This document shows, piece after piece, positions 36,583 through 45,678 of a stretch of 64,000 nt of DNA. The first letter of the stretch is position 1, and the number at the start of each line of letters is the position of its first letter. The translations under genes were made by a program, and so were the position numbers. The notes under the pieces were generated by a model, which saw only the letters and a program-made list of their open reading frames with translations, ran no database searches and was not told where the DNA came from. The stretch is taken from contig JABIDL010000028.1 of the NCBI GenBank assembly GCA_018651745.1, forward strand, positions 1-64,000. Reading direction: 5' to 3'. The stretch comes from Candidatus Neomarinimicrobiota bacterium (GTDB taxonomy: Bacteria > Fidelibacterota > Marinisomatia > Marinisomatales > TCS55).

Positions 36583-37884
36583 TTAACGTGGAGTTCGGAT
36601 TTCTTTTATCAAATGCTCACAGGATGGACGCCAATTTCTATCATTTCTTCCGCGTTCGAGCGAATTGAGTGAAGCTGTTTTATTCCCTTTTCCTCCACAC
36701 CATTCTGCAATACCAAGCTCATACCAACCCCCACCAAATTTAGGTTTTTGTTCCGTTGCTTCCCTCGCTGCACGTTTGCTATTTTCGCAATCTTCCACAC
36801 CATTATATGCAGAGGCAAGTCTGAACCAAACCATTGCATCTTTCGGTTTTAATTCGGATGCGGTTTCTAAAGGACTAATTGCATCCTGAAAAAGTTCTTG
36901 ATTTAAATAAACAATCCCCAATCCAATAAATGATTTGGCATAGGTTGAATCTACAATTGAGCCTTGTAGAAATGCTTGAAGCGCCGCATCATAATTCTGG
37001 TTTGCAAGATGTAAATCGCCAATCGCGCCGTACGCCTTAGAATATTTCGGATGAACTTCAATAGCTTGATTAAATGCCGCGATGGCTCCTTCTGAATCGC
37101 CTATCCTATTCTTTGCTTTACCAATTGCATACCATCCTTTGTAAAACCCGGGTTGAATATCCAGCGCACTTTGATAGTTTTCTATAGCAATGTTATCATT
37201 CCCAAGTTTTGCTTCAATCACACCAAGTTGATAAAAAGACTGATAAAATGTTTCATCAATCCCAATTGCCTTTCTGTACGATTCCAATGCAGATTCAAGA
37301 TCGCCACGTTTATAATATTGATTCCCGGACAGAAAAGATCTTTTTGCTTCATTCTTGATTGCTTTCAGAGCGTTTTCATGATAAGGATTAATTCGAAGTG
37401 CATTTTTAAAACTCTCAACCGCTGCAGGCGTCTCGCCATTCCTTGAATATGCCAAGCCCATTCTAAAGGCCGCTTCCGAAAAGGTAGAAAACCTTTCAAG
37501 AATGATCCTGAATGTTTCAAGAGCCTCCGATATTTCACCATTACTGTAATAACGATTCCCCTGATTCATTAACGTATTTAATTCGCTGAGCTGTTCAAAT
37601 TCATCTCGAAATTCTTGATTTTCAGGTTCCATATCAATTGCTTCTCTTAAAAACTTCCCTGTATTGGTTAAATCACCTTTCCGCAGGCTTACTCTTGAAA
37701 GACCAAGAAATGCCAGAGAAAATGATGGGTCCATATCTAGAGCACTTTTAAAAAGGGATTCTGCAATATCAATATTACCTTTTGCAAGTTCTTCCTGAGC
37801 ACGCGCATGATCCGCCATTGGATCTTGGGAAAAACACATGGCTGAAACCATCAGGATAAATATGAGATTTTTCTTTAATTTCAT
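36583..37884 (-). CDS. Periplasmic tetratricopeptide-repeat protein
   Basis: The 433-residue protein has a signal peptide (ending MCFSQ) and then a run of about ten 34-residue TPR helices with the pattern G-x-x-x-x-A-x-x-x-F...P. Clear copies are SEAAFRMGLAYSRNGETPAA, SFYQLGVIEAKLGNDNIAI and KAYGAIGDLHLANQNYDAAL. TPRs act as protein-protein scaffolds; the partner is not indicated. ATG at 37884 has AAAGGA 11 bases upstream. It lies between tRNA-Leu and the HAD gene. Confidence 0.85.
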   Translation of the reverse strand: MKLKKNLIFILMVSAMCFSQDPMADHARAQEELAKGNIDIAESLFKSALDMDPSFSLAFLGLSRVSLRKGDLTNTGKFLREAIDMEPENQEFRDEFEQLSELNTLMNQGNRYYSNGEISEALETFRIILERFSTFSEAAFRMGLAYSRNGETPAAVESFKNALRINPYHENALKAIKNEAKRSFLSGNQYYKRGDLESALESYRKAIGIDETFYQSFYQLGVIEAKLGNDNIAIENYQSALDIQPGFYKGWYAIGKAKNRIGDSEGAIAAFNQAIEVHPKYSKAYGAIGDLHLANQNYDAALQAFLQGSIVDSTYAKSFIGLGIVYLNQELFQDAISPLETASELKPKDAMVWFRLASAYNGVEDCENSKRAAREATEQKPKFGGGWYELGIAEWCGGKGNKTASLNSLERGRNDRNWRPSCEHLIKEIRTPR

Positions 37885-37913
37885 GTGAATTTTGTTCCTT
37901 TATTAATATTCAG

Positions 37914-37997
37914 TGCCGAAAGCCGGACTCGAACCGGCACGGGGTTTCCCCCACTGCCCCCTCAAGACAGCGTGTCTACCAGTTCCACCACTTCGGC
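37914..37997 (-). tRNA. tRNA-Leu (GAG)
   Basis: An 84-base cloverleaf can be drawn on the minus strand. The seven-pair acceptor stem is GCCGAAG with TTTCGGC (one G-T pair). A long variable arm (a class II tRNA) and a T loop GTTCGAG are present. The five-pair anticodon stem encloses TTGAGGG, giving anticodon GAG for CUC/CUU leucine codons. The 3' CCA is not encoded. It lies seven bases downstream of secG, a secG to leucine-tRNA order also seen in E. coli (secG-leuU). Confidence 0.93.
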
Positions 37998-38004
37998 TAA
38001 ACAT

Positions 38005-38349
38005 TTATTGGTCATTTTGGGGATAAATTTGCACCCCTGGGAGTGATAATTCAGCCCCGGGTGCTAAAGACCCTTCTTCAACGGCTTCCTGAAGAATTGA
38101 TGTGGATGAGTCTCCACTTAAAGATGAGCCCACTAAACTAATCAAAATAGCCAATGCCATGAACATCACTACAAGCCAAGTCGTAATTTTGCTCAGCATA
38201 GAAGCCGTTCCGCGAGATCCGAGGATAGCATTAGATGCTTGCCCTCCAAATGAACCGGCAAGCCCTCCGCCTTGACTGGCTTGCATTAATATACTTGTCA
38301 CCAAAAATAGGCTGACAATTGTATGAATTGTAATGAGAAATCCTAACAT
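38005..38349 (-). CDS. secG: Preprotein translocase subunit SecG
   Basis: The small membrane partner of SecYE. The 114-residue product has two membrane segments separated by the Gly/Ser-rich cytoplasmic loop QGGGLAGSFGGQASNAILGSRG, a SecG hallmark, and a hydrophilic C-terminal tail ending EGSLAPGAELSLPGVQIYPQ, longer than in E. coli-like minimal forms. It lies between tpiA (seven bases upstream) and tRNA-Leu. Confidence 0.93.
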   Translation of the reverse strand: MLGFLITIHTIVSLFLVTSILMQASQGGGLAGSFGGQASNAILGSRGTASMLSKITTWLVVMFMALAILISLVGSSLSGDSSTSILQEAVEEGSLAPGAELSLPGVQIYPQNDQ

Positions 38350-38356
38350 ATTTTTT

Positions 38357-39121
38357 TTACTCCCTGATACTGGTTTCTACTTTTGTAATAATTTCCGAAA
38401 ATGATTCCGGTTCCAAACTAGCGCCGCCAATTAAAAAACCATCTACGCCATTCGCAAGAATTAATTCACCAACATTGGTTGATTTAACAGAGCCTCCATA
38501 TAAAACCGGAATTGTACTTCCAAAGTCTCCGAGGGTTTGTTGAACAAGATTTTTTACCAAACCATGAGCATCCTCAATTTGATCTACCGATGCATTTTCT
38601 CCGGTACCAATAGCCCAAACCGGTTCGTATGCTATAAGAAATCCATTCACGTCAGATATATCTTTTAACCCATTCGAAATTTGCTTTTCTAGCACGTCTT
38701 TCATATTTCCGGCTTGTCTTTCTTCTAGAGTTTCCCCTACGCAAAATATGGGTCGTAAGCCCGCTAAAAAAGCAAGGTGCATTTTCTTGTTAATCCATTC
38801 ATCAGATTCGCCAAAAATGTGACGTCTTTCAGAATGTCCAAGGATAACGTATGTCACTCCACACGCTTTCAGCATTTCGGAAGAAATTTCCCCGGTAAAT
38901 GCACCGGATCCTTCCCAATGCATATTTTGGGCACCCAATAACCACGATTCTCCCTCAAGAGATTTTCCCATGTCAAACAGCGCCGTAAAAGGCGGGCAGA
39001 ATATAACCTGCGCTTTTTCCATATTCAAATTCAATTTGGACGATTTTTCGAGGAAAAATTGTGCTTCTTCACTCGTTTTATTCATTTTCCAATTTGCCAC
39101 TACAAAAAATTTCGATTTCAT
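38357..39121 (-). CDS. tpiA: Triosephosphate isomerase
   Basis: A glycolytic TIM-barrel enzyme interconverting dihydroxyacetone phosphate and glyceraldehyde 3-phosphate. The 254 residues show NWKMNK (catalytic Lys), LGHSERR (catalytic His), AYEPVWAIGTG (catalytic Glu) and the phosphate-binding loop LYGGSVKSTNV. Standard length. ATG start one base after the pgk stop; pgk-tpiA-secG is a conserved bacterial order. Confidence 0.96.
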   Translation of the reverse strand: MKSKFFVVANWKMNKTSEEAQFFLEKSSKLNLNMEKAQVIFCPPFTALFDMGKSLEGESWLLGAQNMHWEGSGAFTGEISSEMLKACGVTYVILGHSERRHIFGESDEWINKKMHLAFLAGLRPIFCVGETLEERQAGNMKDVLEKQISNGLKDISDVNGFLIAYEPVWAIGTGENASVDQIEDAHGLVKNLVQQTLGDFGSTIPVLYGGSVKSTNVGELILANGVDGFLIGGASLEPESFSEIITKVETSIRE

Positions 39122-39122
39122 A

Positions 39123-40310
39123 TTATTGCTCCAATACTTCTAATGCCGGTAAGGTATTTCCGCTTAAAATCTGTAACGATGCGCCACCGCCTGTAGAAAC
39201 ATGACTCATACTATGGTTTAGACCAAATTGATTAAGAGCCGACGCAGAATCGCCACCACCCACAACGGAAATTGATCCGTTTTCTACCGCGTCTGCCATT
39301 GCATTTGCAACACCTAATGTTCCCTTTTCAAATCCCGGAACTTCAAACACTCCCATAGGTCCATTCCAAAATATTGTTTGTGAATTCATTATTTCATTTC
39401 GAAATCTTTCAATAGTCTCCGGACCAATATCTACTCCTACTTTATTTTTCGGTAATTCTTTCGAAGAACAGACTGATATTTTTTCGTCTTTTTTTATGCT
39501 ATTCACACATTTAATATCTGTGGGAAATAGAAATTTTACCTTGCGTTCATGCGCAAGCCCAATAATTTCTTTTGCAGTTGACAACATAGCGTCATCCACA
39601 AGTGAAGTTCCAATTTCCATCCCTCGTGCCTTTAAAAATGTGAACACCATACCGCCACCAATTAATATGGTGTCAGCTTCCATCAGAAACCGTTTAATTA
39701 ATGCCACCTTTGTTTTTAGTTTCGCACCTCCTAAAACAAGGGTAAACGGTTTTTTGGGTTTGGTCATAATTCCATTTAGAAAATGGATCTCTTTTTCCAT
39801 AAGATGACCTATGCCTTTAAGCTGTAAGTGTTTCGCAATACCCGTATTCGAAGCATGAGCCCGGTGAGCAGTTCCAAATGCATCATTGATATAAATGTGA
39901 GCGTGCTTTGCCAAAATTCCGGAAAATTTCGGATCATTTTTTTCCTCACCCGAGTGAAAACGTACATTTTCTAATAAATGAATTTCACCCGGTTTCAGTC
40001 CTAGGGAAACATCCAAAGCGTCTCTCGACACACAATCATCAGAAAATTTTATGGGCATTTCAAATAAATCCGCCAACGTTTCGCCAACAGGGACTAAACT
40101 ATATTTATTATCAGGCTTCCCATTCGGACGGCCAAGATGTGACATTAAAATAATCGCAGCTCCTCGGTTCATACAATCCTTAATTGTTGGTAAAGCGGCA
40201 CGAAGACGAAAATCGTCTATAACACGTTCTCCATCCATGGGAACATTAAAATCAACGCGGATCAGTACTTTCCGATTTTTTACATCAAAATATTTTAATG
40301 ATTTTATCAT
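39123..40310 (-). CDS. pgk: Phosphoglycerate kinase
   Basis: Catalyses the ATP-forming step of glycolysis from 1,3-bisphosphoglycerate. The 395-residue two-domain protein has the N-terminal VLIRVDFNVPMDG, HLGRPNG and NDAFGTAHRAHASN substrate-binding segments. GGAKLKTK and the C-terminal VVGGGDSASALNQFG with TGGGASLQILSG form the nucleotide-binding domain. Four-base ATGA overlap with comF-like upstream. Length and motifs are standard. Confidence 0.97.
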   Translation of the reverse strand: MIKSLKYFDVKNRKVLIRVDFNVPMDGERVIDDFRLRAALPTIKDCMNRGAAIILMSHLGRPNGKPDNKYSLVPVGETLADLFEMPIKFSDDCVSRDALDVSLGLKPGEIHLLENVRFHSGEEKNDPKFSGILAKHAHIYINDAFGTAHRAHASNTGIAKHLQLKGIGHLMEKEIHFLNGIMTKPKKPFTLVLGGAKLKTKVALIKRFLMEADTILIGGGMVFTFLKARGMEIGTSLVDDAMLSTAKEIIGLAHERKVKFLFPTDIKCVNSIKKDEKISVCSSKELPKNKVGVDIGPETIERFRNEIMNSQTIFWNGPMGVFEVPGFEKGTLGVANAMADAVENGSISVVGGGDSASALNQFGLNHSMSHVSTGGGASLQILSGNTLPALEVLEQ

Positions 40311-40990
40311 GTTTTCTCAGTGGGTCTTGGTGTTGCACACGTCAAGGCAATCACTTTTTTTGTACCACATTTTTTCAACGCGATAGCTGCTGAAGACATA
40401 GTGGATCCGGTTGTCAATACATCATCGATCAACACAATTGTTTTATCCTTTACATTCCGACGAACCACAATCGCATCGGCTAAATTTTGAATACGCTCTT
40501 GTTTATTAAGTTGTGTTTGACTTTCAGTAAATTTGGTTCGACGCAACACATCAGTTCGTACAGGACAATTCCAAGATGTGGAAAGTCCTTTTGCTATAAA
40601 ATCTGCCTGATTGTATCCGCGTTTCCGTTTTTTAACTGTGTGAAGTGGAATGGGAATAAGCATATCAATTTCACGTATATTATCCACCTGAATCGTTTTT
40701 CCCATGAGTTTACCCAATTGAGTTCCAACTCCAGCATAATCACTGTATTTCAATAAATGAATGACCTGTTGTAGTTCATCATCAAAAAACCAACATGAGA
40801 ATGCTGCATCTATTCCTTCAGAGCAGGACATTGATTTTATCCAATTACCGAATTGAGTTTGTCTCAATTTATTTAAACATGTGCCACATACAAGATTACT
40901 TCCGGTCATCATATCTCCGCACGATTTGCAAAGATTCGGATAAACCAAGTCCGAAAGTACGTTAAAAGGTAATGTAAGTGCTGAAATCAT
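40307..40990 (-). CDS. ComF-family phosphoribosyltransferase-like protein
   Basis: The 227-residue protein resembles ComF/GntX-type proteins: an N-terminal zinc-finger-like pair (NLCKSCGDM, LVCGTCLNK), LIPIPLHTVKKRKRGYNQADFIAKG, and the PRPP-binding loop IVLIDDVLTTGSTMSS. ComF aids DNA uptake in competent bacteria, but most family members have no proven role. It overlaps pgk by four bases and faces the divergent kinase-like gene across 68 bases. The ATG at 40990 is the only good start. Confidence 0.87.
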   Translation of the reverse strand: MISALTLPFNVLSDLVYPNLCKSCGDMMTGSNLVCGTCLNKLRQTQFGNWIKSMSCSEGIDAAFSCWFFDDELQQVIHLLKYSDYAGVGTQLGKLMGKTIQVDNIREIDMLIPIPLHTVKKRKRGYNQADFIAKGLSTSWNCPVRTDVLRRTKFTESQTQLNKQERIQNLADAIVVRRNVKDKTIVLIDDVLTTGSTMSSAAIALKKCGTKKVIALTCATPRPTEKT

Positions 40991-41058: not shown

Positions 41059-44052
41059 ATGATGGCTGAAACAATAAAAACATTGCGTTCGCAAGTCAAT
41101 TTTCAAGATCTGATGCTGGTGAGGATTCATGAAATCCTTTTGGTTGCAAGCCCATACGATGCATTTATTTTGGAAGAAGAAGGAGGACTTACGCAACAGA
41201 TTCTTTATGAATATCTTGGAATGAATTTGAGCTATGCCCCCCGTGTTTGGCATGCAAAAAGTGCTACAAAAGCATTGGATATGCTTTCTCATCGAAAATA
41301 TGACATGGTTATTGTGATGATGAGAATTGCGGATATGGATCCGGTGACTTTTGGTTCAAAAGTAAAAAAATTATTCCCCAAAAAACCAGTCATCTTGCTT
41401 GCTTTCGATCCCTCAGAAATTAAGCAAATTCCGGAAAAGAGGTTGACGAAATCCATCGATAAAATATTTATTTGGTCCGGGAATGCTAATGTATTCCCTG
41501 CAATTATAAAATATTATGAAGATAAGAAAAATGTTAAGCGAGATTATAAGATTGCTGATATAAGATGTATTATTGTTGTGGAGGACAATCCTAGGTATTA
41601 TTCTATTCTTCTTCCGTTATTATATAAAATCGCATTGAAACATGCACGAAATCTTATCAACTCTAGCCTTTCGGATGCAGATAGAATTTTGATGTTTCGG
41701 GCCCGTCCTAAAATTTTGCTCACTTCTACTTACGAAGAGGCTATCGATTATTACAAGAAATATCGGAATAATATTCTTGGAATTGTGTCAGATGTTCGTT
41801 TCCCAATGAGTGGAAAACTAGATCCGGATGCCGGTGTAAAGCTTACAAGGTTTATTAAAGAATTGGATCCAGATATGCCAATCATTCTCCAATCAACGAA
41901 CCAAGATCAGGAGAAAGAAGCCCAAAAGGCAGATGCACAGTTTTTGCATAAACATTCCGGAAATCTGCTACAGGAAATAGAAAAATTCATTGTAAATAAT
42001 TTTGGTTTCGGTGATTTTGTATTTCGAACATCAAAACAAAAAGAAATATCCAGAGCAACTGATCTCATATCGCTTAAAAAAGCAATAAAACTCGTTCCTG
42101 GGAAAAGCCTTGAATTCCACGCATCACGAAATCATTTTTCAAACTGGATTGCTGTAAGAGGAGAATTCAAAATCGCTTCCAAATTAAGATCGATGAAAAT
42201 CCATCATTTTGATAAGACCGAAGATTTACGAAATATTTTAATTGAATTTATTGATAAAGCCATCCTAGAACAGCATAAAGGTCGAATTGCCGCATATTCG
42301 AAATCTTCGAGAGAAAAGAAAATGAACTTTACCCGGATATCTACCGGGTCTTTGGGTGGAAAAGCACGAGGGCTTGCATTTGCAAATTCAATGTTAATGG
42401 AATCCGGTATTCCCGAAAAATATCCGAATATCCTAATTCGAATTCCCAATATTTCCGTGATTGGTACAGATGAATTCGATCAATTTATGGGTGATAATAA
42501 TCTTTGGCAAAAAGTAGTAACAGATAAATCAAACTCATCCATTAACAGACTTTTTCTAAAAGCATCTCTTCCTACAGAATTGGAGAAACTTCTTAAAAAT
42601 TTTCTCAATGATGTAAAATATCCATTAGCCGTGCGATCGTCTAGCTTGTTCGAAGATTCACAATATCAACCATTGGCAGGTATGTATGCGACCTACATGA
42701 TTCCCAATGCAAATAAGCATAAGAAAGATCGATTACATCAGCTTTGTAATGCCATTAAACTTGTGTACGCTTCTATGTTTTACCAAGAACCGAAAGCACT
42801 CATCGAATCTTCTGTCCATAATCTTTCTGAAGAAAAAATGGCAGTAGTTTTAATGGAATTGATCGGAAAAAAATATGACGATATCTTTTATCCAACTATC
42901 AGCGGATCGGCACAAAGTTTTAATTATTATCCCGTATCTTATATGGAACGAGAAGAAGGTGTTGCGTTTGTAGCGCTTGGGTTAGGGCGCACTGTTGTAG
43001 AAGGTGAAAAAGCACTTCGGTTCTCCCCAAAATATCCAGCTATTCTACCTCAATATTATTCTATCAAAGCAACCATAGATAGCTCGCAAAACAGCTTTTA
43101 TGCACTCAATCTCACTCCCAATAAAAAACTTTTATCCAAAGGTGAAAAGGGGAATCTGAAGTCCTATAAATTAAGCCGCGCGGAAAAAGACGGAGAACTA
43201 AAATGGGCAGCAAGTGTGGTCTGTGGGCAAGATAACGTGATTCGTGAATCTCTTCGCTACCAAGGAACCCGCGTTATCACTTTTCCATCAGTTTTGAAAT
43301 GGAATACCATTCCATTAACAGATATAATTTTAGACCTCCTTGAAATTGGAGAAAATTCACTCGGCTGTCCTGTAGAAATTGAATTCGCATCTAATGTGTA
43401 TGACGAAGATGACAAACCCTCGGAATTTTGTCTTCTTCAAATCAAACCTTTAGTAACGCGCTCTTTGGACCGTTTCGAGGAGTTGGAGTCTAGTTCTCCA
43501 GAGAACATCATCTGCAAAAGCGAAGCAGCTCTTGGGAATGGAATCATTCAGGGAATTCAAGATATTATCTTAGTTGACCCCCAAGGTTTTGATCCTGCAC
43601 ATACAAAAATAATGGCTAAAGAAATTGAATTTCTAAACATCAAACTTGAAGGAAAACCGTGCATATTAATGGGGCCTGGCCGATGGGGATCCGCAGATCA
43701 TTGGTTGGGAATTCCGGTAAAATGGCAACAAATTTCTAATGCAAAGGTCATTGTTGAACTTGGGATCGAGGATTTTCCGGTTGATCCATCTTTTGGGAGT
43801 CATTTTTTCCAAAATGTTACCAGCATGCGTATTGGGTATTTCACAGTTAATCATAAAAAGAAATCAGATGATTGTAATTTGAAGTGGATAAAATCTCAAC
43901 ATACCCAAAAGAAAAAGAAATATACCAGATTGATTCACCTTGAAAACCCTCTCCTCGTAAAAATTGACGGACGAACAGGGACAGGAATTATCCAGAAACC
44001 AGTTGAACAGAAGATGGAATTAATGGACGAACAAGAGTCGTCCGGGATTTAG
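41059..44052 (+). CDS. Two-receiver protein fused to a PEP-synthase/PPDK-type ATP-binding domain
   Basis: A 997-residue cytosolic protein. Residues about 22-155 look like a receiver, but Met87 replaces the phospho-acceptor Asp, so it is a pseudoreceiver. Residues about 167-312 form a full receiver: acidic pair Glu175/Asp176, phospho-acceptor Asp245, Thr280 and Lys298, with an insertion after the first helix. Residues about 430-800 form a pyruvate-phosphate-dikinase N-terminal ATP-binding domain (GGKARGLAFAN, AVRSSSLFEDSQYQPLAGMY, IEFASN, LLQIKPLV). Residues about 815-975 carry a conserved-looking block GPGRWGSADHWLGIPVKW and GSHFFQNVTSMRIGYFT. The swivelling phosphohistidine domain and PEP-binding TIM barrel of PpsA are absent. 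Function is unknown. Confidence 0.8.
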   Translation: MMAETIKTLRSQVNFQDLMLVRIHEILLVASPYDAFILEEEGGLTQQILYEYLGMNLSYAPRVWHAKSATKALDMLSHRKYDMVIVMMRIADMDPVTFGSKVKKLFPKKPVILLAFDPSEIKQIPEKRLTKSIDKIFIWSGNANVFPAIIKYYEDKKNVKRDYKIADIRCIIVVEDNPRYYSILLPLLYKIALKHARNLINSSLSDADRILMFRARPKILLTSTYEEAIDYYKKYRNNILGIVSDVRFPMSGKLDPDAGVKLTRFIKELDPDMPIILQSTNQDQEKEAQKADAQFLHKHSGNLLQEIEKFIVNNFGFGDFVFRTSKQKEISRATDLISLKKAIKLVPGKSLEFHASRNHFSNWIAVRGEFKIASKLRSMKIHHFDKTEDLRNILIEFIDKAILEQHKGRIAAYSKSSREKKMNFTRISTGSLGGKARGLAFANSMLMESGIPEKYPNILIRIPNISVIGTDEFDQFMGDNNLWQKVVTDKSNSSINRLFLKASLPTELEKLLKNFLNDVKYPLAVRSSSLFEDSQYQPLAGMYATYMIPNANKHKKDRLHQLCNAIKLVYASMFYQEPKALIESSVHNLSEEKMAVVLMELIGKKYDDIFYPTISGSAQSFNYYPVSYMEREEGVAFVALGLGRTVVEGEKALRFSPKYPAILPQYYSIKATIDSSQNSFYALNLTPNKKLLSKGEKGNLKSYKLSRAEKDGELKWAASVVCGQDNVIRESLRYQGTRVITFPSVLKWNTIPLTDIILDLLEIGENSLGCPVEIEFASNVYDEDDKPSEFCLLQIKPLVTRSLDRFEELESSSPENIICKSEAALGNGIIQGIQDIILVDPQGFDPAHTKIMAKEIEFLNIKLEGKPCILMGPGRWGSADHWLGIPVKWQQISNAKVIVELGIEDFPVDPSFGSHFFQNVTSMRIGYFTVNHKKKSDDCNLKWIKSQHTQKKKKYTRLIHLENPLLVKIDGRTGTGIIQKPVEQKMELMDEQESSGI

Positions 44053-44056
44053 GCTT

Positions 44057-45397
<1,341 letters not shown>

Positions 45398-45543: not shown

Positions 45544-45611
45544 TTTGGCGGAGTAGATCCCCGCAAGGTGCGGGGCAGGACGCTTCAGTGATATTTTATT
45601 TGGCGGAGTAG
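45544..45611 (+). repeat. 13-bp direct repeat of the tRNA-Met 5' end with a palindrome
   Basis: The 13 bases TTTGGCGGAGTAG occur at 45544-45556 and again at 45599-45611, where they include the first ten bases of the tRNA-Met gene. Three bases after the first copy is a perfect palindrome CCCCGCA-AGG-TGCGGGG (45559-45575). It looks like an abortive copy of the tRNA start, or a small repeat that used it. Confidence 0.6.
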
Positions 45612-45678
45612 CTCAGCTGGTTAGAGCAGCGGAATCATAATCCGCGTGTCGGGGGTTCAAATCCCTCCTCCGCTACCA
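45602..45678 (+). tRNA. tRNA-Met (CAT), probably elongator
   Basis: A 77-base cloverleaf including an encoded CCA. Acceptor stem GGCGGAG pairs with CTCCGCT (first pair G-T). The D arm AGCTCAGCTGGTTAGAGC and anticodon stem GCGGA/TCCGC are clear; the loop ATCATAA gives anticodon CAT, and the T arm contains GGGGGTTCAAATCCC. The initiator form is unlikely because it lacks the three G-C pairs of the initiator anticodon stem. A lysidine-modified tRNA-Ile(CAT) cannot be fully excluded. A strong terminator follows. Confidence 0.9.

Follow-up and report, generated by a model that had tools for sequence, protein, structure and literature searches.

A dikinase-like gene and a glutamate dehydrogenase (GDH) gene, gdhA, lie convergently, with 4 bp between their ends, in the window, which is the whole stretch of 64,000 nucleotides that was analyzed. 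The features of the two genes are as follows:

41059..44052, + strand: complete gene (997 aa) with the order pseudoreceiver, receiver, DUF5752-like segment, PPDK_N ATP-grasp, C-terminal HFFQ block
41131..41523, + strand: pseudoreceiver REC1, residues 25-155 (Pfam, conservation, AF2 secondary structure)
41557..41994, + strand: intact receiver REC2, residues 167-312 (Pfam, conservation)
42016..42288, + strand: DUF5752-like linker, residues 320-410 (Pfam 3.9e-7 as a separate piece, conservation)
42349..43467, + strand: PPDK_N ATP-grasp domain, residues 431-803 (Pfam, alignment, PDB profile match, conservation)
43495..43998, + strand: C-terminal block (GPGRWG...GSHFFQN...IDGxxG), residues 813-980 (conservation, AF2 model)
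44057..45394, - strand: gdhA, glutamate dehydrogenase, 445 aa (PF00208 2.6e-97; conserved neighbour)

The genes comF, pgk, tpiA, secG and one for a TPR protein are located on the minus strand (36583-40990), divergent from the dikinase-like gene, in a synteny that is conserved in many Neomarinimicrobiota. A tRNA gene was found behind gdhA (45602-45675, + strand; Rfam RF00005).

A Pfam scan of the 997-aa protein revealed PPDK_N at residues 431-803 (8.7e-34), two Response_reg stretches and DUF5752 at residues 355-409. Cut out singly, the receivers scored 1.5e-4 (REC1) and 5.8e-4 (REC2), which is under the Pfam cut-off yet recognisable. Two receiver folds are present in the full-length AF2 model, and the best PDB matches of the whole model (Foldseek) were tandem-receiver proteins such as PleD. 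H354 and H359 are conserved (YHxxxNHFSNW) in the DUF5752-like segment between the receivers and the ATP-grasp. The ORF call, Pfam and the orthologues bear out the first-pass annotation, which had described an open reading frame at 41059-44052 with a pseudoreceiver, a complete receiver, a PPDK-type ATP domain and a C-terminal block.

Residue conservation was determined from an alignment of 91 sequences, 86 of receiver type and 5 receiver-less 1070-aa proteins as outgroups. The acidic pair of REC1 is replaced by Ala30/Ser31 and its phospho-Asp by Met87 (codon 41317-41319); among the aligned homologues this site is M in 81/91, L in 7/91 and D in 0/91. REC2 carries Glu175, Asp176, Asp245 (codon 41791-41793), Ser279 and Lys298 (codon 41950-41952), and D245 with the remainder of the signature (acidic pair, phospho-Asp, Ser/Thr, Lys) is kept in essentially all receiver-type members. 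Based on these site residues, and on Foldseek for the fold, REC2 is a canonical receiver and REC1 an aspartate-less one. The earlier reading of Met87 in place of the phospho-Asp, with Asp245 and Lys298 intact, holds. Aspartate-less receivers are enriched on PPDK outputs (PMC4395418).

Lys435, Arg526, Glu775, Gln794, Arg875, Trp876 and His915 are invariant (91/91), while Thr545 is T in 86/91 and S in 5/91. K435, R526, T545, E775 and Q794 correspond to catalytic positions of PEP synthase and rifampin phosphotransferase (RPH). The first three align with Lys22, Arg117 and Thr136 of RPH, which are needed for function, their replacement abolishing resistance (PMC4844700). In a PDB profile search the family profile matched structures of both PEP synthase and RPH (1e-13 to 1e-14), with the match running to the end of the ATP-grasp, and the conserved Lys/Arg/Gln of the PF01326 ATP-grasp of PEP synthase/PPDK are all present. 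The ATP-site residues, the receiver Asp and Arg875/His915 are essentially invariant and therefore the protein is not a pseudoenzyme; that reading, by which the homologues would be degenerate and without ATP-binding residues, was ruled out by the conserved ATP site across the 91 aligned sequences, among which no such degeneration was seen. We infer that the protein very probably carries out ATP-dependent catalysis. The signal-responsive ATP-dependent phosphotransferase proposed earlier would fit the conservation of both the Lys/Arg/Thr positions tested in RPH and the phospho-acceptor Asp. To judge from its sequence, the protein is a conserved, real enzyme of marine Neomarinimicrobiota and Bacteroidota, in which a two-component switch is joined to a PEP-synthase-type ATP site. 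A role as the metabolic PPDK was dropped, because a separate, complete PPDK is encoded elsewhere in the genome.

The C-terminal block directly follows the ATP-grasp, at the position where PEP synthase and PPDK carry the swivelling phosphohistidine domain. Pointed out beforehand in one sequence, it proved to be highly conserved among the homologues and present in every subfamily. R875, W876 and H915 (codon 43801-43803) are invariant in it, and His915 and Arg875 are also invariant across the subfamilies. No match to PF00391 was obtained for this gene in any genome searched (Pfam HMM), and the Pfam scan gave none to the TIM barrel PF02896; the barrel, whose absence had been correctly called, has no room since just 194 residues come after the ATP-grasp. 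The block had no match in a PDB profile search, and its profile aligned to PEP-utiliser domains (hhalign) at chance level, 2/40 shuffles being equally good. PF00391 was unsupported by hhalign with both narrow and diverse profiles, in a test of little power, since with the narrow profile even the ATP-grasp homology, which is certain, went undetected.

The isolated block was modeled with confidence (pLDDT 84, pTM 0.82). Its elements are strands 12-16, 18-20 and 23-34, helix 41-57, strand 63-68, a short helix 84-87, strand 90-96, helix 110-117 (residue 110 being His915), strand 121-125 and C-terminal strands with IDGxxG. We take this order, b-b-a-b-a-b-a(starting at the His)-b, to be that of a swivelling beta/beta/alpha phosphohistidine domain with the His at the start of a helix. 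When the C-terminal model was compared with PDB and viral models by Foldseek, nothing significant emerged; the best match was an LD-carboxypeptidase (E 8e-3), and glutamate carboxypeptidase II stood below the LD-carboxypeptidases among the non-significant matches. Both of these enzymes also contain swivelling beta/beta/alpha domains. The full-length model matched PPDK 5jvn over 692 columns (6.9e-5), by column count longer than expected from the ATP-grasp alone. The block is somewhat favoured to be a strongly diverged swivelling phosphohistidine domain, and the odds are also slightly on the side of His915 being the phosphocarrier. The first-pass annotation had stated that the swivelling histidine domain is lacking. 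This stands at the level of HMMs, which detected neither PF00391 nor PF02896; it is put in doubt by the position of the block, the predicted order of elements, which resembles that of a phosphohistidine domain in the AlphaFold model, and the invariant, helix-starting His915.

Candidatus Neomarinimicrobiota MAGs are the nearest named relatives. The gene was matched in 54 of 61 genomes of relatives, nearly always as a single full-length copy, and the orthologues are without internal stops. Counting receiver-less relatives, the family occurs in 120/149 genomes of the phylum. Nearly all Neomarinimicrobiota (SAR406) have the gene, the exception being streamlined lineages (genus g22, 0.7-1.0 Mb, is without it), and it is present in gut Bacteroidota also. 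The Bacteroidota homologues, named "PEP/pyruvate-binding domain-containing protein" in RefSeq (e.g. WP_041525632.1), are 38-39% identical across 97% of the length. Phyla beyond Neomarinimicrobiota were viewed through plasmid and phage collections only, and no relatives turned up in the viral contigs scanned. Two of the Bacteroidales 'plasmids' with a homologue, L117 and L118 (PLSDB NZ_OY725790.1 and OY726056.1), contain genes that look chromosomal, such as that for valine--tRNA ligase, and are probably mislabelled chromosome pieces.

Four subfamilies were distinguished, the receiver type and three without receivers, the latter with a length of some 770 aa or as tandem pairs of 586+1070 aa. The ~770-aa relatives lie immediately 3' of a 416-424-aa GDH in loci L200-L208, and no receiver-type copy was found in the sampled genomes with this type (families f18, f23 g47). 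The tandem form occurs as an operon (L196:4739-9684, L197, L198, L199 and L209) of a 428-aa GDH, a 586-aa protein with ATP-grasp and HFF block, and a 1070-aa protein in which another ATP-grasp and an HFFQ block come before a terminal NTP_transf_2 nucleotidyltransferase domain; in L209 the GDH is beyond the contig edge. One locus (L210:5681-13442) has a single gdhA flanked by two receiver-type copies of 1000 and 982 aa.

GDH genes adjoin 51 of 58 receiver-type loci and are not near in the other 7/58; nearby GDH is also missing at the Prevotella locus L119 and at L232. In 61 further loci of the phylum, GDH was within 3.5 kb in 42 (40 convergent, 2 divergent) and on another contig in 19. For the receiver-less ~770-aa types, the gene just upstream encodes a different GDH of 416-428 aa in 9/9 loci, and GDH is adjacent to the 586+1070-aa operons in all four whose contig extends far enough (4/4). 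It is also adjacent in 2/3 Bacteroidales loci in PLSDB, Parabacteroides and Phocaeicola having a divergent gdhA plus a second GDH a few kb off. The linkage spans four subfamilies, three orientations (convergent, divergent, co-directional) and two GDH types, and therefore is not one inherited block. The streamlined genomes have kept GDH and lost the dikinase-like gene; the family is thus not an obligatory GDH partner, and its loss on streamlining while GDH stays is as expected of a regulator. A functional link of the protein to GDH is likely from this gene order. That GDH is its direct target is a tentative suggestion, as adjacency itself is no proof. The neighbouring GDH, the best clue to the acceptor that the first-pass annotation had called unknown, had been overlooked there, and no paper linking a receiver-dikinase protein and GDH was found in the literature searched.

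The shape had also been called close to a previously undescribed signalling enzyme, which was not upheld: aspartate-less receivers and REC-PPDK fusions are already in the literature, the latter as a 'Bacteroides-like combination' (PMC5847659), and RefSeq annotates a homologue. The protein belongs with these fusions, having receivers and PPDK_N in one chain and full-length similarity to the Bacteroidota members. The latter share its architecture, receiver pattern, ATP site and GxHFFQN block, with gdhA adjacent in two Bacteroidales, but differ in gene orientation to gdhA and in a shorter C-terminal tail. No published function for a REC-PPDK protein was found in the searchable literature. PpsA/PPDK have the ATP-grasp, its catalytic residues and a following His-bearing block in common with the protein, which differs in its N-terminal receivers and in having no sequence-detectable PF00391 and no TIM barrel. 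RPH, with the equivalents Lys22/Arg117/Thr136, is likewise without the pyruvate-binding barrel and is from a family able to take other acceptors. Its rifampin-binding domain, which lies between ATP-grasp and His domain, is absent here, where the C-terminal block follows directly and cannot be aligned with the histidine domain of RPH; NCBIfam RIF_Ptrans_rph gave the Parabacteroides homologue 19 bits against a cut-off of 999 bits. Response regulators with enzymatic output and ALR also place a pseudoreceiver and a canonical receiver before an enzymatic domain, whereas the output here is a predicted ATP-grasp phosphotransferase with linkage to GDH. New here are the invariant ATP site, receiver Asp, Arg875 and His915, the C-terminal block at the histidine-domain position, and the GDH linkage of four subfamilies.

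On the best reading, the protein would regulate glutamate dehydrogenase as a phosphotransferase or ATP sensor of the PEP-synthase family, gated by its receiver. A sensor kinase encoded elsewhere would phosphorylate Asp245 of REC2, with REC1 as a structural, non-phosphorylatable receiver, and phosphorylated REC2 would switch the PEP-synthase-type ATP-grasp domain. The latter would probably transfer the beta-phosphate of ATP to His915 of the C-terminal block. As there is no TIM barrel for pyruvate, the phosphate would pass to another acceptor, and the neighbouring GDH is the best candidate for this acceptor or for a controlled partner. Since the relatives are mostly beside a GDH gene, whatever their front end, the protein may switch GDH on and off, and ammonia assimilation would in this way respond both to a signal and to the ATP/AMP state. 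The probability of this two-component output-enzyme explanation as a whole (gated ATP-grasp, transfer through His915, GDH as acceptor or partner) is put at roughly 0.4.

The GDH linkage, the undetected phosphohistidine domain and the lack of a recognisable acceptor domain would also suit a nucleotide sensor without phosphotransfer, in which the ATP-grasp/C-terminal unit binds ATP/AMP and acts jointly with the receiver as a regulatory subunit bound to GDH. We consider this unlikely, since K435, R526, T545 and His915 are kept, whereas a protein that only sensed nucleotides should have lost one or another of the phosphotransfer residues. The same low likelihood is given to a receiver-gated kinase or dikinase acting on a small molecule, which may be a 2-oxoacid or an amino acid close to 2-oxoglutarate/glutamate; GDH would then be a neighbour in the pathway without being the target. 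Dikinases act mostly on small molecules, RPH shows that new acceptors are possible in the family (PMC4844700), and GDH is next door; however, no substrate-binding domain lies between the ATP-grasp and the C-terminal block, and the gene was lost from streamlined genomes that keep GDH.

The presence of a receiver Asp and an invariant His in one chain raises an internal phosphorelay, in which phosphate moves between His915 and Asp245 and the protein's own receiver is served by the ATP-grasp in the manner of an unorthodox histidine kinase. This is highly improbable, as subfamilies that have no receiver are still linked to GDH and retain both ATP-grasp and His; the receiver is therefore an add-on. 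We attach as little weight to GDH proximity being inherited synteny only, with an unrelated role such as envelope or sugar-nucleotide control. Such a view draws on the long conserved pgk/tpiA/comF neighbourhood in Neomarinimicrobiota and on some loci (L213, L117) beside a sugar nucleotidyltransferase and a kinase, but GDH stays at loci whose other flank shows no pgk/tpiA/comF (e.g. L035, L086, L108), and in three orientations with two GDH types.

The link to GDH, made by receiver-type and receiver-less forms with different GDH types, offers a concrete, testable role in ammonia assimilation, and under it dikinase chemistry would serve to regulate a protein under two-component control. A further reading, which is rather doubtful, is that ATP-grasp/phosphohistidine proteins derived from PEP synthase form a family, widespread but so far unrecognised, which reversibly modifies GDH and which in Neomarinimicrobiota and Bacteroidota has come under two-component control. 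If true, this family could be the molecular basis of the reversible GDH inactivation reportedly seen in Bacteroides fragilis in the 1980s; a literature search for that work found nothing.

In Parabacteroides (L117:12035-14199) and in one distant family of Neomarinimicrobiota (L213:3164-5326), the receiver-type gene has a sugar nucleotidyltransferase gene and a kinase/RapZ-like gene beside it, an arrangement which recalls AmgK/MurU cell-wall recycling.
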